From: Propionibacteriales bacterium
Lineage (GTDB): Bacteria; Actinomycetota; Actinomycetes; Propionibacteriales; Nocardioidaceae
DNA length: 64,000 nucleotides
Reading direction: 5' to 3'
Assembly (NCBI GenBank): GCA_026392455.1
Contig: JAPLCB010000004.1
Coordinates: 62,001-126,000 of the forward strand
The notes beneath the pieces are model-generated. The model was not told the DNA's origin. It saw nothing but the letters and a program-made list of their open reading frames with translations, and searched no databases. The position numbers and the translations under genes are program-made. This document shows, piece by piece, positions 2,512-62,242 of the stretch (position 1 is the stretch's first letter; the number at the start of each line of letters is the position of its first letter).

Positions 2512-2598
2512 GGGAAGAACCGTAGTGCAGAGGACGATTCGGACGTGTCGGGCGCCACTAGGACATAACGCAATGCGGGGGTGCCTCGTTGACCGTGC

Positions 2599-2976
2599 AT
2601 GAACGCACTGATCAGCAGGCTCCAGGCGCCCCGGACCATCCGGTCCCACGTGGCACGCCTCCTGGTCGTGCGGACGGTCGGTTCGGTCGTCCTGGTGGCG
2701 ACCGCGCTGTTCGGGCAGTCCCTGGCGATGCAGCCGTCCGGTGCTGATCTCGAGGCTGGGCCGGTGCCTGCAACGGTCCGGCCGGTCCTCGACCGGGTCG
2801 CGTACCCCGACTGCGTCCGGCCGCAGGACTGGCCGGCGAACACCTGGGGCGCCTCGGTGATCGCCTACAGTGCGACCGACGGCCGCACCCGCCAGGTCTC
2901 GTTCGACCGGGCCTGGGAGGTCACCCACAACGACACCGAGGCCGACGACGTCACGGTTCTGGGTATCTGCCGCTGA
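2599..2976 (+). CDS. Hypothetical single-pass membrane or secreted protein
   Basis: A 125-aa protein that I cannot assign to a family. It has a basic N-terminus, one hydrophobic stretch at about residues 22-42 (LLVVRTVGSVVLVATALFGQ) and a polar C-terminal domain with two cysteines (YPDC and the penultimate GICR) that could form a disulfide outside the membrane. It is divergent from the FAD oxidoreductase and 52 bp upstream of the pirin gene. It is credible as a real gene because of codon bias and signal-like organisation, but no function can be inferred. Confidence 0.55.
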   Translation: MNALISRLQAPRTIRSHVARLLVVRTVGSVVLVATALFGQSLAMQPSGADLEAGPVPATVRPVLDRVAYPDCVRPQDWPANTWGASVIAYSATDGRTRQVSFDRAWEVTHNDTEADDVTVLGICR

Positions 2977-56681: not shown

Positions 56682-58259
56682 GTGCACCCACGTCGTCGGA
56701 CCCGTTACGGGCTGGTCATCGCCTTGCTCGGGCTGGTGGCAAGCCTGTTCGTGCGGCTTCCCGCGGCGGAGGCTTCCTCGACGATCCTGTGCAAGGGCTT
56801 CACCGCCTGCGCGAACGCCGGGTACTCGAGCTTCGGCTACGGTCCGACCAACTACAAGAAGATGTGGTGGCGGATGTACGCCGGCCACAACTGCACCAAC
56901 TACATGGCCTACCGGATGATCAAGGCCGGGCTGCCGGTCGAGCGCCCGTGGTCGGGGAGTGGTGACGCCCGGAACTGGGGCGTGGTCTTCAAGTCGAAGG
57001 TCAACCAGACACCGATGATCGGGTCGGTCGCGTGGTGGTCGAGCAACCACGTGGCCTACGTCCAGCGGATCATCGACGCGGACACCATCGTCATCTCCGA
57101 GGACCACTACGGCGGTGACTTCGACTGGCGGAAGATCACCCGCGCCGGCGGCGGCTGGCCGACCGGGTTCATCCACCTGGCCGACGAAGTCCTCACCGCG
57201 ACCAGTCCGCCCGAGGTCACCGGCACCCCGAAGGTCGACGAGCCGCTCGCCGTGAAGCCCGGATCGTGGAACCGCACCGGGACCACCTACACCTACCAGT
57301 GGCTCGCGGGTGGTGCCCCGATCGCTGGTGCGACCGGCACCAGCTACACGCCCACCGCCGACCAGGTAGGCGACACCTTCACCGTCAAGGTGACCGCGTC
57401 CAAGGCCGGGTTCAGGTCGGGTGCCGCGACCAGTCCGGCCACGCCGGCGACAGCCCCCGGCACGATGGTGCCGGCCGCGAGTCCCACGCTGTCCGGCGTC
57501 CCGAAGGTGGGCGCAGTTCTGGTCGCCGCGCTTCCGGCGATCGATCCTCAGCCCGGGACGATGAAGTACGGCTGGTTCGCCGACGGCAAGTACATCTCCG
57601 GCGTCACCGGGACCAGTCTGAGCCTGCAGCCGGCCCACCTGGGCAAGGTGATCCGGTTCGTCGTCCGTTCGTCCCGCGCTGGCTACGACGACCTGCTGAG
57701 CCGCTCGGCCCCGACGGCCGAGGTCGGTCCGGAGAAGCTCGCCGTCACCCGGGAGCCAGGCCTGGTCGGGAACCCGTACGTCGGGCGGCCCTACACGGTC
57801 CGCGCCGGCGAGGTCACCCCCGAGGCCGAGACGAGCTACCAGTGGCTGGCGAACGGGGTCGCGATCCCGGGTGCCACGGCAGCGACGTACACGCCGGGTC
57901 TCGGCGACCCCGGGGTACGGCTCAGCCTGCGGGTCGCCTACACCCGGGACGGGTACACCACGATCGAGCGCGTGCTGAGCGCGCCCCAACCGATCCGGTC
58001 CCTGGCCCGGGTCTACGTCCGGTCCACCGCCCGCAAGACGGTCACGGTGCACGTCCTCGGTGATGGTGTCCCGGTGGTGAAGGGTCAGGTGACGCTGATC
58101 GCGCGCAACGGCTCGCGCCGGACCCTGACCCTCCAGGACGGCACCGCGACCTTCGCGATGTCGTGGCTCTACACGGGCACCCGGACGTACACCGTCAGCT
58201 ACCTGGGGTCACCGAAGGTGGCCGCCCGGACGCGCGTGGTGACGATCGAGGTGAAGTAG
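56682..58259 (+). CDS. Secreted CHAP-domain cell-wall hydrolase with Ig-like repeats
   Basis: A 525-aa secreted protein. A signal peptide occupies residues 1-31 (ending AEASS). A CHAP amidase domain follows, with the catalytic Cys in GHNCTNYMAYRMI (about 71) and His in SSNHVAYVQ (about 124). Then come three bacterial Ig-like repeats starting around residues 179, 268 and 358 (GTPKVDEPL, GVPKVGAVL, GNPYVGRPY), each with a YxW[LF]A[DN]G core, and a final beta domain (about 440-525). It probably cuts peptidoglycan peptides. Convergent with the exporter gene, 11 bp apart. GTG start, TAACGT -10 box 6 nt upstream. Confidence 0.88.
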   Translation: MHPRRRTRYGLVIALLGLVASLFVRLPAAEASSTILCKGFTACANAGYSSFGYGPTNYKKMWWRMYAGHNCTNYMAYRMIKAGLPVERPWSGSGDARNWGVVFKSKVNQTPMIGSVAWWSSNHVAYVQRIIDADTIVISEDHYGGDFDWRKITRAGGGWPTGFIHLADEVLTATSPPEVTGTPKVDEPLAVKPGSWNRTGTTYTYQWLAGGAPIAGATGTSYTPTADQVGDTFTVKVTASKAGFRSGAATSPATPATAPGTMVPAASPTLSGVPKVGAVLVAALPAIDPQPGTMKYGWFADGKYISGVTGTSLSLQPAHLGKVIRFVVRSSRAGYDDLLSRSAPTAEVGPEKLAVTREPGLVGNPYVGRPYTVRAGEVTPEAETSYQWLANGVAIPGATAATYTPGLGDPGVRLSLRVAYTRDGYTTIERVLSAPQPIRSLARVYVRSTARKTVTVHVLGDGVPVVKGQVTLIARNGSRRTLTLQDGTATFAMSWLYTGTRTYTVSYLGSPKVAARTRVVTIEVK

Positions 58260-58270
58260 CCGGACCGGGG

Positions 58271-60973
58271 TCAGCCGACCTGGTTCGCCGCCAGCTCGAA
58301 GTACAGCCCGCGCCGCTCGAGCAGCTCGTCGTGGGTCCCCCGCTCGGCGATCCGGCCGTTGTCCAGGACCAGGATCTGGTCCGCGTCCCGCACCGTCGAC
58401 AACCGGTGTGCGACCACGAACACGGTGCGGCCTGCGAAAGCCGTCCGCAGGCTGGCCTGCAGCGCCAGCTCGGACTCGGAGTCCAGGGCGCTGGTGGCTT
58501 CGTCGAGCAGGATCACCGACGGGTCCCGGTAGAGGGCCCGGGCCACGCAGATCCGCTGGCGCTCGCCGCCCGACAGCCGGGTCCCGCGTTCGCCGACCCG
58601 GGTGCTGTAGCCGAGCGGCAGTCGGGAGACGAACGCGTCGGCGGTCGCGGTGGCAGCGGCGCGACGTACCTGGGCGAGGTCGATGTCGTCCTCGCCGAAG
58701 GCGATGTTCTCGGCGATCGTGCCGTCGAAGAGGTGGCTGTCCTGCAGGACGACCCCGAGCTGGCGTCGGTACGCGCGCAGGTCGACGGCGGACAGGTCGA
58801 CGCCGTCGCAGGTGATCGAGCCGGACTCCGGATGCAGCATCGCGGCGAGCATCAGCAGCAGCGTGCTCTTGCCGGCCCCGGACCGTCCCACGATCGCGAC
58901 CGTCTCGCCGGGGCTCGCCCGGACGGTGACGTCCTGGAGGATCCAGCGCCCGGCTTCGCCCGGGTGCCGGAAGCTGACCCGGTCCATCCGGATGTCGCCG
59001 TCGAGAGCGGTCGGAACGATCCCGGTCCCGGCGGCCTGCTCGGGGGAGTGGTCGACGAACTCGCCGAGCCGGTCGAGGAGGACGCGGCCCTGCTGGAAGA
59101 CGTCCCAGAGCGTCAGCAGCTGGGTCAGGGGGGCACTGGTGACCATCACGAGCGACAGGAACGGCACGAACTCGCTGATCGGGATGGTGCCGTCGACGAC
59201 CTGGTAGGACCCGTAGGTGATGGCCAGCGAGAGCGGCACCAGCGCGACGATCGAGAGCGCGCCCTCGTACAGCATGATCGTGAAGTCGGCGCTGAAGAGC
59301 CGCCCGGCGAGGTCGTCGAACTGGCCGGCGAGCCGGCGCTGGAGCTGCGGCTCGGCGCCCACGGACTTCACCGTGTCGATGCCTCGGATGGCGTCGATCT
59401 GCCGGGACTTGTAGCGGCCCCAGGACTCCTCGAGGCTCTGGAACGCCGGCCTGAGCTTGCGCCGGGAGACGTACATCAGCACCAGGTAGAACGGGATCAC
59501 GACCAGGTAGATCGCCGGCAGCCGGATGTCCCAGTGCGCCATGATCGCCCAGGCGCCGACGACCTGGAAGAGCGCGACGAACGCCCCCACGCCGCGGACC
59601 AGGAAGAAGCTGCGTACCTCGCGGAGCCCGTTGAGCCGGCGCTCGATGTCGCCGGTCCGTCTGTTCTGGAAGAAGGTCACGGGCAGGGCCAGCAGGGTCT
59701 CGGCCACGTGGTCGAGGCTGGCGCGGTCGATGCGCAGCGCGGCTCGGGTGATCACGTAGCGCTGGAACAGGGTCAGGGCGGCCGCGACCCCGAGTACGCC
59801 GAGAACGACCAGCATCACGCCCACCAGCGACCCGGTGTCCCGGGCCTGGATCACGTTCTCGATCACCCACTTGCTGGACAGCGGGACCGCAAGACTCGCG
59901 GCGGCGATGCCGATGCCGCAGAGGGTGGCGACCACGATCGCTGGCCACTCGGCCTTGACGAACGGGCGGAAGAACGCGCCGCCGGAGGCAGCGACGGGTG
60001 CTGAGAAGAGCTCCTGCGTCGGCGCCAGCAGCAGCGCGAAGCCGGTGAAGCGCTCCTCGAACTCGGTGCGGGTCATCCGGCCCGACGTGCCGACCGGGTT
60101 CATCACCCGGACGTCACGACGACGGACCTCGTCCAGGACCACCCAGTGGTTTCCGTCGACGTGGCAGAGAGCGGGAAGCGGAAGCTCGTCGAGCCGGGAC
60201 GTCGAGACCGCCGTCATGGCAGCTCTCAGCCCCAGAGCCTGGGCGCCCCGGTGCAGCCCCAGCAGGCTGGTGCCGTCCGACGCCGTCGACACGGCATCCC
60301 GTACGGCGACCATGCTGACCGGATGGCCGAACGACCGGCAGACCGCCGTCAGCGCGGCCGCGCCGCAATCCATCTCGTCGAGCCCGAAGACCTGAGGCAC
60401 CTTCGCGGGCCTGCCCGTCCGGAACCCGGACCAGTCGTCGCTCCCCGGGTCGACCGGGGCTGCCGGTGCGGTCGGGGTCGACCCGTCGGCTCCCGGGGGC
60501 TCCTCGGCGTCCGGGGTCCTGGTCGGGCGTCTGCGACGCGACGGCTCGGGCAGGGCCTGGATGGAGGCCGCCAGCAGGTCGGCGGTGGGCAGCCAGACCT
60601 CCGTCAGGGCGCGGGCAACCGAGCCGTGCAGGGTGAGGGTCTGGAGCGACCCGGCGGCGCGCACGCTGACGCGTGAGGGGTCGGTGCCGACGGCCTCGGC
60701 GGCGATCACCGCGCCCGGCCCCAGCACGCAGATCTGCTGCTCGGCGCCGTCGCGCCCTCGGGCCGTCACCCGCGCCCGGCCCCGGACGACGACGTGCACC
60801 GTCTCGGGGACCGCGCCTTCGGTGACCAGCTCGGCGCCGAGGTCGAAGGTGGCAGCGCCCAGCGACCGTTCGATCAGGCTGCGTACCTCGAAGGGCGCGT
60901 CGTCGAGAGCCAGCAGCCCTTCGGGCAGACGGGTGCCCGAGCGGTCGGGCGACGAGGCTGATCCGGAGTCCAT
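58271..60973 (-). CDS. C39-peptidase-containing ABC peptide exporter (PCAT) with N-terminal cNMP-like domain
   Basis: A 900-aa, four-part protein. Residues about 30-125 form a cyclic-nucleotide-binding-like domain (VTEGAVPETVHVVVRGRARVTARG). About 190-310 is a C39 peptidase: the Cys is in LDEMDCGAAALTAVCRSFG (about 203), the His in DGNHWVVLDEV (about 276), the Asp in MNPVG-type context. About 335-630 holds six ABC exporter helices. About 650-890 is the nucleotide-binding domain: GRSGAGKST, QDSHLFDGTIAENIAFG, LSGGERQRICVARAL, ILLDEATSALD. It should remove Gly-Gly leaders and export the peptide. Gene order with a parvulin-like protein and a 46-aa Gly-Gly peptide makes this the export unit of a peptide locus. 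Confidence 0.92.
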   Translation of the reverse strand: MDSGSASSPDRSGTRLPEGLLALDDAPFEVRSLIERSLGAATFDLGAELVTEGAVPETVHVVVRGRARVTARGRDGAEQQICVLGPGAVIAAEAVGTDPSRVSVRAAGSLQTLTLHGSVARALTEVWLPTADLLAASIQALPEPSRRRRPTRTPDAEEPPGADGSTPTAPAAPVDPGSDDWSGFRTGRPAKVPQVFGLDEMDCGAAALTAVCRSFGHPVSMVAVRDAVSTASDGTSLLGLHRGAQALGLRAAMTAVSTSRLDELPLPALCHVDGNHWVVLDEVRRRDVRVMNPVGTSGRMTRTEFEERFTGFALLLAPTQELFSAPVAASGGAFFRPFVKAEWPAIVVATLCGIGIAAASLAVPLSSKWVIENVIQARDTGSLVGVMLVVLGVLGVAAALTLFQRYVITRAALRIDRASLDHVAETLLALPVTFFQNRRTGDIERRLNGLREVRSFFLVRGVGAFVALFQVVGAWAIMAHWDIRLPAIYLVVIPFYLVLMYVSRRKLRPAFQSLEESWGRYKSRQIDAIRGIDTVKSVGAEPQLQRRLAGQFDDLAGRLFSADFTIMLYEGALSIVALVPLSLAITYGSYQVVDGTIPISEFVPFLSLVMVTSAPLTQLLTLWDVFQQGRVLLDRLGEFVDHSPEQAAGTGIVPTALDGDIRMDRVSFRHPGEAGRWILQDVTVRASPGETVAIVGRSGAGKSTLLLMLAAMLHPESGSITCDGVDLSAVDLRAYRRQLGVVLQDSHLFDGTIAENIAFGEDDIDLAQVRRAAATATADAFVSRLPLGYSTRVGERGTRLSGGERQRICVARALYRDPSVILLDEATSALDSESELALQASLRTAFAGRTVFVVAHRLSTVRDADQILVLDNGRIAERGTHDELLERRGLYFELAANQVG

Positions 60974-60980
60974 GGCGGGC

Positions 60981-61850
60981 TCAGGCTACGACGTGGCGAG
61001 CGACGGCGCGCACGATCACGTCGTTGCGCAGCACTGCTGCTGCCCGGGCCCGGGTAGCCGGGTCCTCCAGGGAGGGTTCGGTCCGGGACAGCACCTGGAT
61101 CACGGTCCAGCCCGGGGTGGTCGGCACCGGCCCGAGCAGCTCGCCGGGCCGGGCCCCCGCGAGCACGGCTCGCGCGGCGGGCTCGGCGACGGCAGACACG
61201 ACCGCGTCGACCCGCTCGGCCGGGGCCCCGGCGGTCCGGGTCGCCTGGTCGAGGGGGATCCGGTCGCTGATGACCTGGTGGCGCAGCTCCTCGGCCACGC
61301 CGCGGTCCGGGGTCTGCGCGACCAGGGCGTCCAAGCGGGTCCAGTCCAGGCGGTGGGCGTCGATGACCTTCTGCAGCACCGGGTCGGTGGCACGGGTGCT
61401 GACCAAGCGTTCGACCCATCCGGCAGGGTCGAAGTCGGCCGCGGCGGTCGGTGGAGCCTCCAGCTCGGCGGCCGCGGCGGTCGCCGCGACGAGCTCGTTG
61501 GTGATGGCGTCGAAGGCGCCGGAGCAGACCAGGGCGCACCACCCGGTGGCCTGGTGGGTGCTGTCGACGACGTCCTGGGTCCAGGCCACGAAGTCCTCGG
61601 GCTCGATCGCCCAGCGTTCGAGCCAGGCGACCAGGGCGTCGGCAGTGAGCAGACCCCGTGTCCGTCGGAAGGCTTCGGCGACCTGGGCCGACGAGCCGAG
61701 ACCCGGGAACCCCGGGAACCCCGGGAACCGAGCACGGTCGCCGACCTGCCCGTGACGGGCAAGGTCAGCGACCGTGAAATCAGTGCCGGAGCAGCGGAAG
61801 ACCCGCAGACCGGCCAGGGCGACGGGTGCAACCGGGAGGAGGTCGCTCAC
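60981..61850 (-). CDS. Parvulin-related putative peptide-maturation protein
   Basis: A 289-aa protein with a SurA/PpiC-like layout: a helical chaperone-like N-terminal part, then a C-terminal segment (ARPGELLGPVPTTPGWTVIQVLSRTEPSLEDPATRARA, about 230-268) that matches the end of PpiC-type prolyl isomerases and so-called peptide-maturation system proteins. The parvulin core itself is not clearly complete. It has no signal peptide. A triplet PGF-PGF-PGL near residue 45 is coded by a 9-bp tandem repeat. It is 7 bp upstream of the exporter and 34 bp downstream of the small peptide gene. Possibly holds or presents the precursor peptide. Confidence 0.65.
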   Translation of the reverse strand: MSDLLPVAPVALAGLRVFRCSGTDFTVADLARHGQVGDRARFPGFPGFPGLGSSAQVAEAFRRTRGLLTADALVAWLERWAIEPEDFVAWTQDVVDSTHQATGWCALVCSGAFDAITNELVAATAAAAELEAPPTAAADFDPAGWVERLVSTRATDPVLQKVIDAHRLDWTRLDALVAQTPDRGVAEELRHQVISDRIPLDQATRTAGAPAERVDAVVSAVAEPAARAVLAGARPGELLGPVPTTPGWTVIQVLSRTEPSLEDPATRARAAAVLRNDVIVRAVARHVVA

Positions 61851-61884
61851 CGTCGTCGTGGTGGTGCGTCGAGGAGGAACTGGA

Positions 61885-62025
61885 TCAGTCGATGTGCAGG
61901 AAGCCGCCGACGACGATGCCCAGGATGGACGTGACGCCCGGGCCGAGATCCAGGAAGGCTGCTCCGCCGACGACGCCGTGGGCGTCGGTCTCGGTCGGAG
62001 CGAGGTCGATGAAGGTGCTGTTCAT
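61885..62025 (-). CDS. Candidate Gly-Gly precursor peptide (46 aa)
   Basis: A 46-codon reading frame directly upstream of the parvulin-like and C39 exporter genes. The N-terminal 21 residues (MNSTFIDLAPTETDAHGVVG plus G) form a hydrophilic leader ending in Gly20-Gly21, the classic C39 cleavage site. The remaining 25 residues (AAFLDLGPGV, TSILGIVVGG, FLHID) are hydrophobic, with six glycines and no Cys or Lys. A good promoter (TTGAAA-17 bp-TACAAA) and a GGGG stretch lie upstream. It is likely the exported product of this locus: a leaderless-type or bacteriocin-like peptide. It matches no family I know. Confidence 0.7.
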   Translation of the reverse strand: MNSTFIDLAPTETDAHGVVGGAAFLDLGPGVTSILGIVVGGFLHID

Positions 62026-62081
62026 GGTGAAACCCCGATCGTTTAGCCCGGGGGGAAGCCCGGGACATGGATGCTTCTTCC

Positions 62082-62110
62082 TTTGTAGGCCGACCCCGCG
62101 CCGATTTCAA
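62082..62110 (-). promoter_or_regulatory. Promoter of the peptide-export operon
   Basis: On the minus strand, TTGAAA (complement of 62105-62110) and TACAAA (complement of 62082-62087) are separated by 17 bp, in a locally AT-richer stretch, about 57 bp before the peptide start codon. A GC-rich inverted repeat (CCCGGG ... CCCGGG, 62048-62064) lies in the leader. Confidence 0.55.
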
Positions 62111-62242
62111 ACCTGGCACGGATTGTTGGGGTTACGTTCTTGTTTCTGGAGGCGATCTGTGCCATAGCGTCCGATTTGTAGACCGTGACGTCCTCCACAC
62201 CGTCCGGGGAATAGCGGGGGGTCGAGACGCCGTTGGCCCGGT

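Follow-up and report, generated by a model that had tools for sequence, protein, structure and literature searches.

In cyanobacteria, 'long' type C39 exporters, which combine a cyclic nucleoside monophosphate (cNMP)-binding domain, a C39 peptidase and an ATP-binding cassette (ABC) transporter, are reported with SurA-type proteins and Gly-Gly precursor peptides in groups I, II and VI (PMC3140520). As described there, group I joins a Gly-Gly precursor to a CAP_ED (cNMP)-C39-ABC exporter and a SurA-type rotamase protein, and it is group II, rather than group I, that carries additional modification genes. We describe a three-gene cassette resembling group I on the minus strand of a 64,000-nucleotide stretch from a Propionibacteriales bacterium (assembly GCA_026392455.1, contig JAPLCB010000004.1, positions 62,001 to 126,000; hereafter the window). 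It encodes a 46-amino-acid precursor peptide, a helper protein and an exporter of which the peptide is very probably a substrate.

Three further systems are close. HetC of Nostoc has the same cNMP-C39-ABC architecture as the window exporter. Its cNMP domain is reported to bind ppGpp in vitro and to be required in vivo, its substrate is given as unknown, and according to the same report neither a Gly-Gly peptide gene nor a membrane-fusion gene was found near hetC (PMC10986499). By contrast, a candidate substrate adjoins the window exporter. PteB of Synechococcus elongatus is reported to export EbfG1-4 for biofilm formation (PMC4997328); by that description, it too pairs small Gly-Gly proteins with a C39 exporter. 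The rosaritide system, assigned to graspetide group 21, resembles the cassette in having a precursor in which a cut site for the C39 exporter is predicted, a partner of family TIGR04500 and a C39 exporter (PMC13097080). Unlike that system as described, the cassette has no synthetase, its helper leaves the N-terminal region of the partner unmatched, and its exporter is of the long type.

In the preliminary description of this DNA the peptide was of a type not recognised. The architecture of the cassette is a familiar one, matching the cyanobacterial group I and HetC-type systems. Compared with group I as described (PMC3140520), the cassette differs in its actinobacterial host, in the kind of leader, in having orphan precursors too, and in that no HlyD gene was found beside it. 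The kind of system is one already known from cyanobacteria. New, as far as our searches reached, are the family to which the precursors belong, the orphan substrates, the use of a TIGR04500-like helper without a synthetase and the occurrence in an actinobacterium. In the literature searched, mainly open access, no system of such make-up in Actinobacteria was found.

The precursor gene and its relatives

The 46-codon frame is a real, conserved gene. It lies at 61885..62025 (minus strand), starts with ATG and encodes the leader MNSTFIDLAPTETDAHGVVGG followed by the core AAFLDLGPGVTSILGIVVGGFLHID. Gly-Gly forms residues 20-21 and the remaining 25 residues contain no Cys, Lys or Arg. All three open reading frames of the cassette are as first described. 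A Pfam scan assigned the peptide to no family. We compared 24 genomes of the genus, 294 of the family and 394 of the class. The helper was present in 6 of the 24 genus genomes: that of the window and five others (G005, G006, G013, G017 and G020). The gene had been considered doubtful should relatives with the exporter lack a conserved small frame; in all five others the peptide was present immediately upstream of the helper, at 49-72% identity to that of the window, an outcome in the gene's favour. Family-wide, the helper set and the peptide set were the same six genomes (peptide E below 1e-21), each search adding one weak genome (6.8e-4 for the helper, 4.4e-4 for the peptide) that by eye was a chance match. 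Under random placement, which ignores relatedness, such a coincidence of six among 24 genus genomes has P = 7e-6. A search of genome contigs confirmed 4 loci out of 128 stretches, each within the six cassette genomes.

Nothing rose above noise in relatives outside the genus. In the class genomes the helper profile (best six candidates per genome) returned the window's own genome and two weak fragments only, and the peptide profile at E up to 0.05 matched 27 genomes against about 20 expected by chance, with only the own genome far above the rest. None of five pattern matches in viral contigs was confirmed. The helper was not found on plasmids, and the plasmid C39 matches H1, H4, H8, H12 and H21 (of 766 records) had different surroundings, in which no neighbour is annotated as SurA-type. 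PHROGs gave no match, PADLOC gave ABC ATPase matches only, and Rfam gave nothing at the gathering threshold.

Nine precursors could be compared. Residues F5, D7, L8, P10, T11, A15, V19, G20, G21, P29, G36 and the final D were invariant, and the leaders followed the pattern F-x-DL-x-PT...A...(V/I)VGG, the C-terminal Asp being likewise kept. All nine had Gly-Gly at -2/-1 and Val or Ile at -4. Their cores, of 23-26 residues, were hydrophobic (grand average of hydropathy 0.88 to 1.93), lacked Lys and Arg throughout and had a net charge of -1 or -2. Among the cassette-linked cores the ends AAFLD (6/7) and HID (7/7) recurred, allowing I for L after D. The ratio of nonsynonymous to synonymous change (pN/pS) across the whole precursor gene was below 1 in 8/8 pairs (0.32-0.76). 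G006 carries tandem precursors (L007:2357-2485 and 2546-2677, minus strand) with the same leader and different cores, one of which contains two Cys.

Two orphan precursors were found away from any cassette. That of the window's own genome, MTTFTDLAPTATDAAGIVGGAFLAITDPIVLPGGATIFPHVVID, lies on another contig (C4; L010:9702-9836, plus strand; E 5.1e-9 with a peptide profile built without it). It is flanked by a DUF429 gene and a G6PD gene, and the single C39 exporter found in the genome is far away. The second, MTNNFRDLQPTETDATGIVGGSFLGFGPTVVPLPGGASITLFGNVD, lies in G020 about 193 kb from the cassette (L077:8876-9016, minus strand; E 4.8e-10 with the own-genome orphan added to the profile), with a molybdopterin oxidoreductase gene and a circularly permuted ATP-grasp gene as neighbours. 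In both, the leader is of the cassette type, whereas the core contains PGGA and so differs from those of the linked precursors. Orphan carriers numbered 2 of the 294 family genomes and both own a cassette. Since an orphan with the same leader lies far from the cassette, one exporter probably serves several substrates, and the linked precursor is probably not the only one. The peptide-exporter pairing of the preliminary description probably needs widening in this respect. As a separate observation, the ATP-grasp gene lies about 0.9 kb downstream of the G020 orphan on the same strand and may be a chance neighbour or a modifying enzyme.

Exporter and helper proteins

The exporter (58271..60973, minus strand) has 900 amino acids, with a cNMP-binding-like region at residues 43-117, the C39 domain at 198-320, the ABC membrane domain at 347-616 and the ABC ATPase at 679-828. 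The Pfam families cNMP_binding, Peptidase_C39, ABC_membrane and ABC_tran all scored above cut-off, the C39 domain (PF03412, fused to PF00664 and PF00005) reaching 89.5 bits against a cut-off of 22. By this domain order it is a 'long' type cNMP-C39-ABC protein. It was the single match when its own genome was searched for C39. The best NCBIfam match was the HlyB-type model TIGR01846 (444.6 bits, under the cut-off of 725.55), followed by the NHLP exporter model (429.7 bits, under the cut-off of 853.3). Exporters at TIGR04500 loci were 31-34% identical to the window exporter, and the frames of those at L059, L063, L073 and L074 leave no room for a cNMP domain.

The helper (60981..61850, minus strand, GTG start) has 289 amino acids in a SurA/PrsA-like layout. 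Its Pfam matches, Rotamase_2 (0.0017) and HAD (0.0064), were both weak and below cut-off. The structure model was good only for approximately residues 141-280, a part with a parvulin fold at about residues 168-257. Active parvulins have catalytic histidines, a GGDLG-like loop and a G-(Y/F)-H-I motif. At the expected site of that motif the six helpers have G/S/C-W, with T, C, I or A as the next residue. In none of the six do the residues at the usual catalytic sites match those of an active enzyme, and the helper probably lacks isomerase activity. The parvulin relationship first proposed survives for the fold, in a protein that is SurA/PrsA-like and TIGR04500-related. An RRE-like domain at the helper N-terminus was considered and not upheld, the models being too poor.

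Profile comparisons indicate that the helper is a distant relative of TIGR04500 ('putative peptide maturation system protein'). The six helpers scored 27.4-44.4 bits with that model (cut-off 180), and profile-profile comparison with eleven TIGR04500 proteins gave 98.2% probability, aligning helper residues 13-279 with template residues 83-325 and leaving template residues 1-82 unaligned. The kinship is distant, as the helper profile at E 0.001 did not report the TIGR04500 proteins present in the class sample. MirC, a TIGR04500 protein, is reported to be needed for making rosaritide; its residues 1-90 are described as a separate, weakly RRE-like domain, and loss of either domain abolished modification (PMC13097080). 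MirC is also reported to lack similarity to PPIase domains (PMC13097080), in contrast to the parvulin fold of the helper model.

As controls we took TIGR04500 matches over the cut-off (28 rows), 25 of which were in genomes searched for a graspetide synthetase and three, from G309, outside them. In 24 of the 25 a match to the synthetase family TIGR04187 lay 32-185 bp from the TIGR04500 gene, with scores of 165.8-259.2 bits that are themselves under the family cut-off of 350. The exception, G568 C46, had only a short frame, by eye a synthetase start. By contrast, TIGR04187 was found beside the helper in none of the six cassettes. Genome-wide, two of these six genomes had no TIGR04187 match, three had weak ones (20.6-24.6 bits, the own genome's best being 24.6) and G005 had one that scored 150 bits and lay at a distance of about 383 kb from the cassette. 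Weak TIGR04500 matches occurred in G533, G569 and G583, whose fetched loci (L069-L071) held no match to the window exporter. The listing of control precursors covered the other 17 of the 20 fetched loci, and a DLAP leader motif is present in some rosaritide-related precursors. Apart from these comparisons, the TIGR04500 gene of G568 (L075:6852-7999, plus strand) may offer another example of a partner protein that lacks a complete synthetase.

Proposed export and rival explanations

The cassette peptide is very probably the exporter's substrate: each of the six genomes keeps it next to the helper and the exporter, it carries a Gly-Gly leader, and no recognised modification enzyme lies nearby. 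This was first proposed from gene order in a single genome and is strengthened by the comparison. For the system as a whole we lean, with reservations, towards export of a chaperoned, unmodified, acidic and hydrophobic peptide of about 25 residues with its leader removed. After translation the 46-amino-acid precursor would be modified by no clustered enzyme. The SurA/PrsA-like helper would keep the acidic hydrophobic core soluble and unfolded and hand it to the exporter, whose C39 domain would cut after Gly20-Gly21 and whose ABC transporter would expel the 25-residue core. Export could be gated by a nucleotide at the N-terminal cNMP-like domain, and the leader shared with distant orphan genes would let one exporter process several cores in trans. 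Cleavage by the C39 domain is likely, although its active site departs in part from the canonical one.

Several observations weigh against this explanation. In the window the catalytic positions of the C39 domain are Cys203, His276 and Asn292, the third being Asp in the other five exporters, and the position six residues ahead of the Cys, usually a Gln, holds Gly or Ala in 6/6 exporters. The domain had been called intact, a term that suits Cys and His and needs qualifying for these two positions. The Gln is kept in 8/8 graspetide-locus exporters with a readable motif, and we hold the explanation slightly less firmly for that reason. In the LahT substrate, leader Leu residues at -7 and -12 are reported to fit the C39 groove (PMC6363468); all nine leaders here lack them, position -7 being Ala and -12 being Pro. 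With these residues and the missing Gln both differing from the LahT case, leader recognition would depart from the textbook one, and the helper may contribute part of it. When pN/pS was computed per region it reached 0.58 in the leader and 0.92 in the core, core values being as high as 0.92 and 0.88 in two pairs. Finally, modelling gave no usable structure for most of helper residues 1-111 (mean predicted local distance difference test score 43.7 when modelled alone).

The replaced Gln and Asn292 would also suit a C39 domain that no longer cuts. The precursor would then be exported whole or only bound, and its leader would serve for docking in the manner of HlyB-type systems. The best NCBIfam match, under its cut-off, is indeed of HlyB type. 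However, Cys and His are kept in 6/6 exporters and Asp in 5/6, Gly-Gly is invariant in 9/9 precursors, and in LahT the Gln lies 4.3 A from the oxygen, so that its suggested oxyanion role is itself reported as doubtful (PMC6363468). We consider a non-cutting domain unlikely. The same can be said of a bacteriocin, whose hydrophobic core would insert into the membranes of competitors. Class II bacteriocins typically have Gly-Gly leaders, C39 exporters and a basic core. The first two and a hydrophobic core are present, and the two tandem precursors of G006 differ in their cores, but a basic core is absent from all nine precursors and the linked cores share their ends. The gaps of 7 bp (helper to exporter) and 34 bp (precursor to helper) leave no space in the cassette for an immunity gene, and no cassette-specific neighbour of at least 100 amino acids was found, smaller or distant genes not having been sought. 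The preliminary description had offered a bacteriocin or a signal peptide. The former has no support so far, and a signal or a cell-surface or matrix component seems more likely than a killing peptide, with a membrane-associated signal or surface peptide fitting best.

A graspetide or other modified peptide, with its synthetase encoded elsewhere in the genome, is harder still to sustain and we think it improbable. It would explain why the helper is related to TIGR04500, a family whose member MirC is reported as needed for graspetide formation (PMC13097080), and the 150-bit match of G005 is a candidate synthetase. The own genome's best TIGR04187 score of 24.6 bits compares poorly with the 165.8-259.2 bits beside true TIGR04500 genes, and the other cassette genomes are mostly no better, TIGR04187 being the only such family searched genome-wide. 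In addition, the helper does not align to the N-terminal region that MirC needs, and the Ser/Thr positions vary among the cores, which argues against graspetide rings. A Pfam scan of the neighbours recognised no modification enzyme, as had been stated at the outset.

Export of an unmodified, chaperoned peptide may also be part of something larger. Tentatively, and with less confidence than in export itself, the locus could represent a dispersed secreted-peptide regulon of a monoderm. In such a regulon one leader and a 5' hairpin would be common to linked and unlinked precursors, and a single HetC-type exporter, gated by a nucleotide, would export them all unmodified. Its dedicated cytoplasmic chaperone would share ancestry with graspetide-synthetase partners. 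If so, the exporter would be, as far as our searches reached, the first of the HetC type outside cyanobacteria to have a substrate in hand, and the helper would be a natural case of a TIGR04500 chaperone module operating without a synthetase. The cassette brings a candidate substrate together with its exporter and companion in three genes, no modification enzyme is recognised there, and a second, probable substrate lies elsewhere. With so compact a layout, leader-only recognition, the need for a chaperone and nucleotide control are testable in one small system, which also offers a way to tell what TIGR04500-type proteins do as chaperones from what they do in making graspetides.

Neighbours, empty sites and the upstream region

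A common gene order surrounds the cassette in all six genomes: pepN-like, CHAP-Ig protein, Rv2466c-like and metG-like (pepN and metG named by eye). The cassette sits between the CHAP-Ig and Rv2466c-like genes in 5/6, whereas in G006 it is the Rv2466c-like gene and metG that enclose it. In cassette-free G007, G011 and G018 the CHAP-Ig and Rv2466c-like matches lie within about 50-95 bp of each other and enclose nothing, and no exporter match was found at 1e-3 in these three loci. The empty sites between the same neighbours indicate that the genes for peptide, helper and exporter are present or absent as a unit. Trees of flanking genes and cassette had support of 38-83 except for one pair at 100 and allow no choice between gain and loss.

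The CHAP-domain protein with Ig-like repeats (56682-58259, plus strand) has 525 or 526 amino acids in the six cassette genomes and is convergent with the exporter in five. It was considered as a cassette member and rejected, as it adjoins the Rv2466c-like gene in G007, G011 and G018. A possible helper remnant in G011 (L166:7241-7435, minus strand; 5.6e-4) lies between the Rv2466c-like gene and metG, the site of the G006 cassette. Its 31.2 bits exceed the best of 300 shuffles (25.0), but it is antisense to an open plus-strand frame, was found by one of six helper queries and is taken as a shadow of the plus-strand gene. The Pfam-scanned neighbours comprised the CHAP-Ig and Rv2466c-like proteins, an alpha/beta hydrolase, a DNA glycosylase, a SpoIIE-type phosphatase and a mechanosensitive channel, with four more frames matchless. 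No HlyD membrane-fusion gene was found among the frames scanned around the cassette, 4/8 frames in one scan having no Pfam match at all.

Upstream of the precursor gene, a promoter-like TTGAAA-17-TACAAA pair lies at 62082..62110 (minus strand). The well-spaced promoter noted earlier is backed by the comparison, since TTGAAA or TTGTAA followed by TACAAA or TAGAAA precedes the first precursor in 6/6 cassettes, and not by a generic sigma-70 scan, which did not report the pair at 62110-62082. A AACGTAAC-like element upstream of it (62131..62138, minus strand), with CGTAA in 6/6 cassettes, is a possible regulator site. The 5' leader contains a CCCGGG...CCCGGG hairpin (62047..62064, minus strand) that forms in 7/7 folded leaders, those of G013 and G006b not being folded. 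Its z-scores of -1.78 to +1.02 are not significant, so we make no claim for an RNA element. A GGGG Shine-Dalgarno-like run lies 7 bases before the ATG (62033..62036, minus strand). A hairpin, at a similar place, and a GGGG run also precede the orphan precursors.

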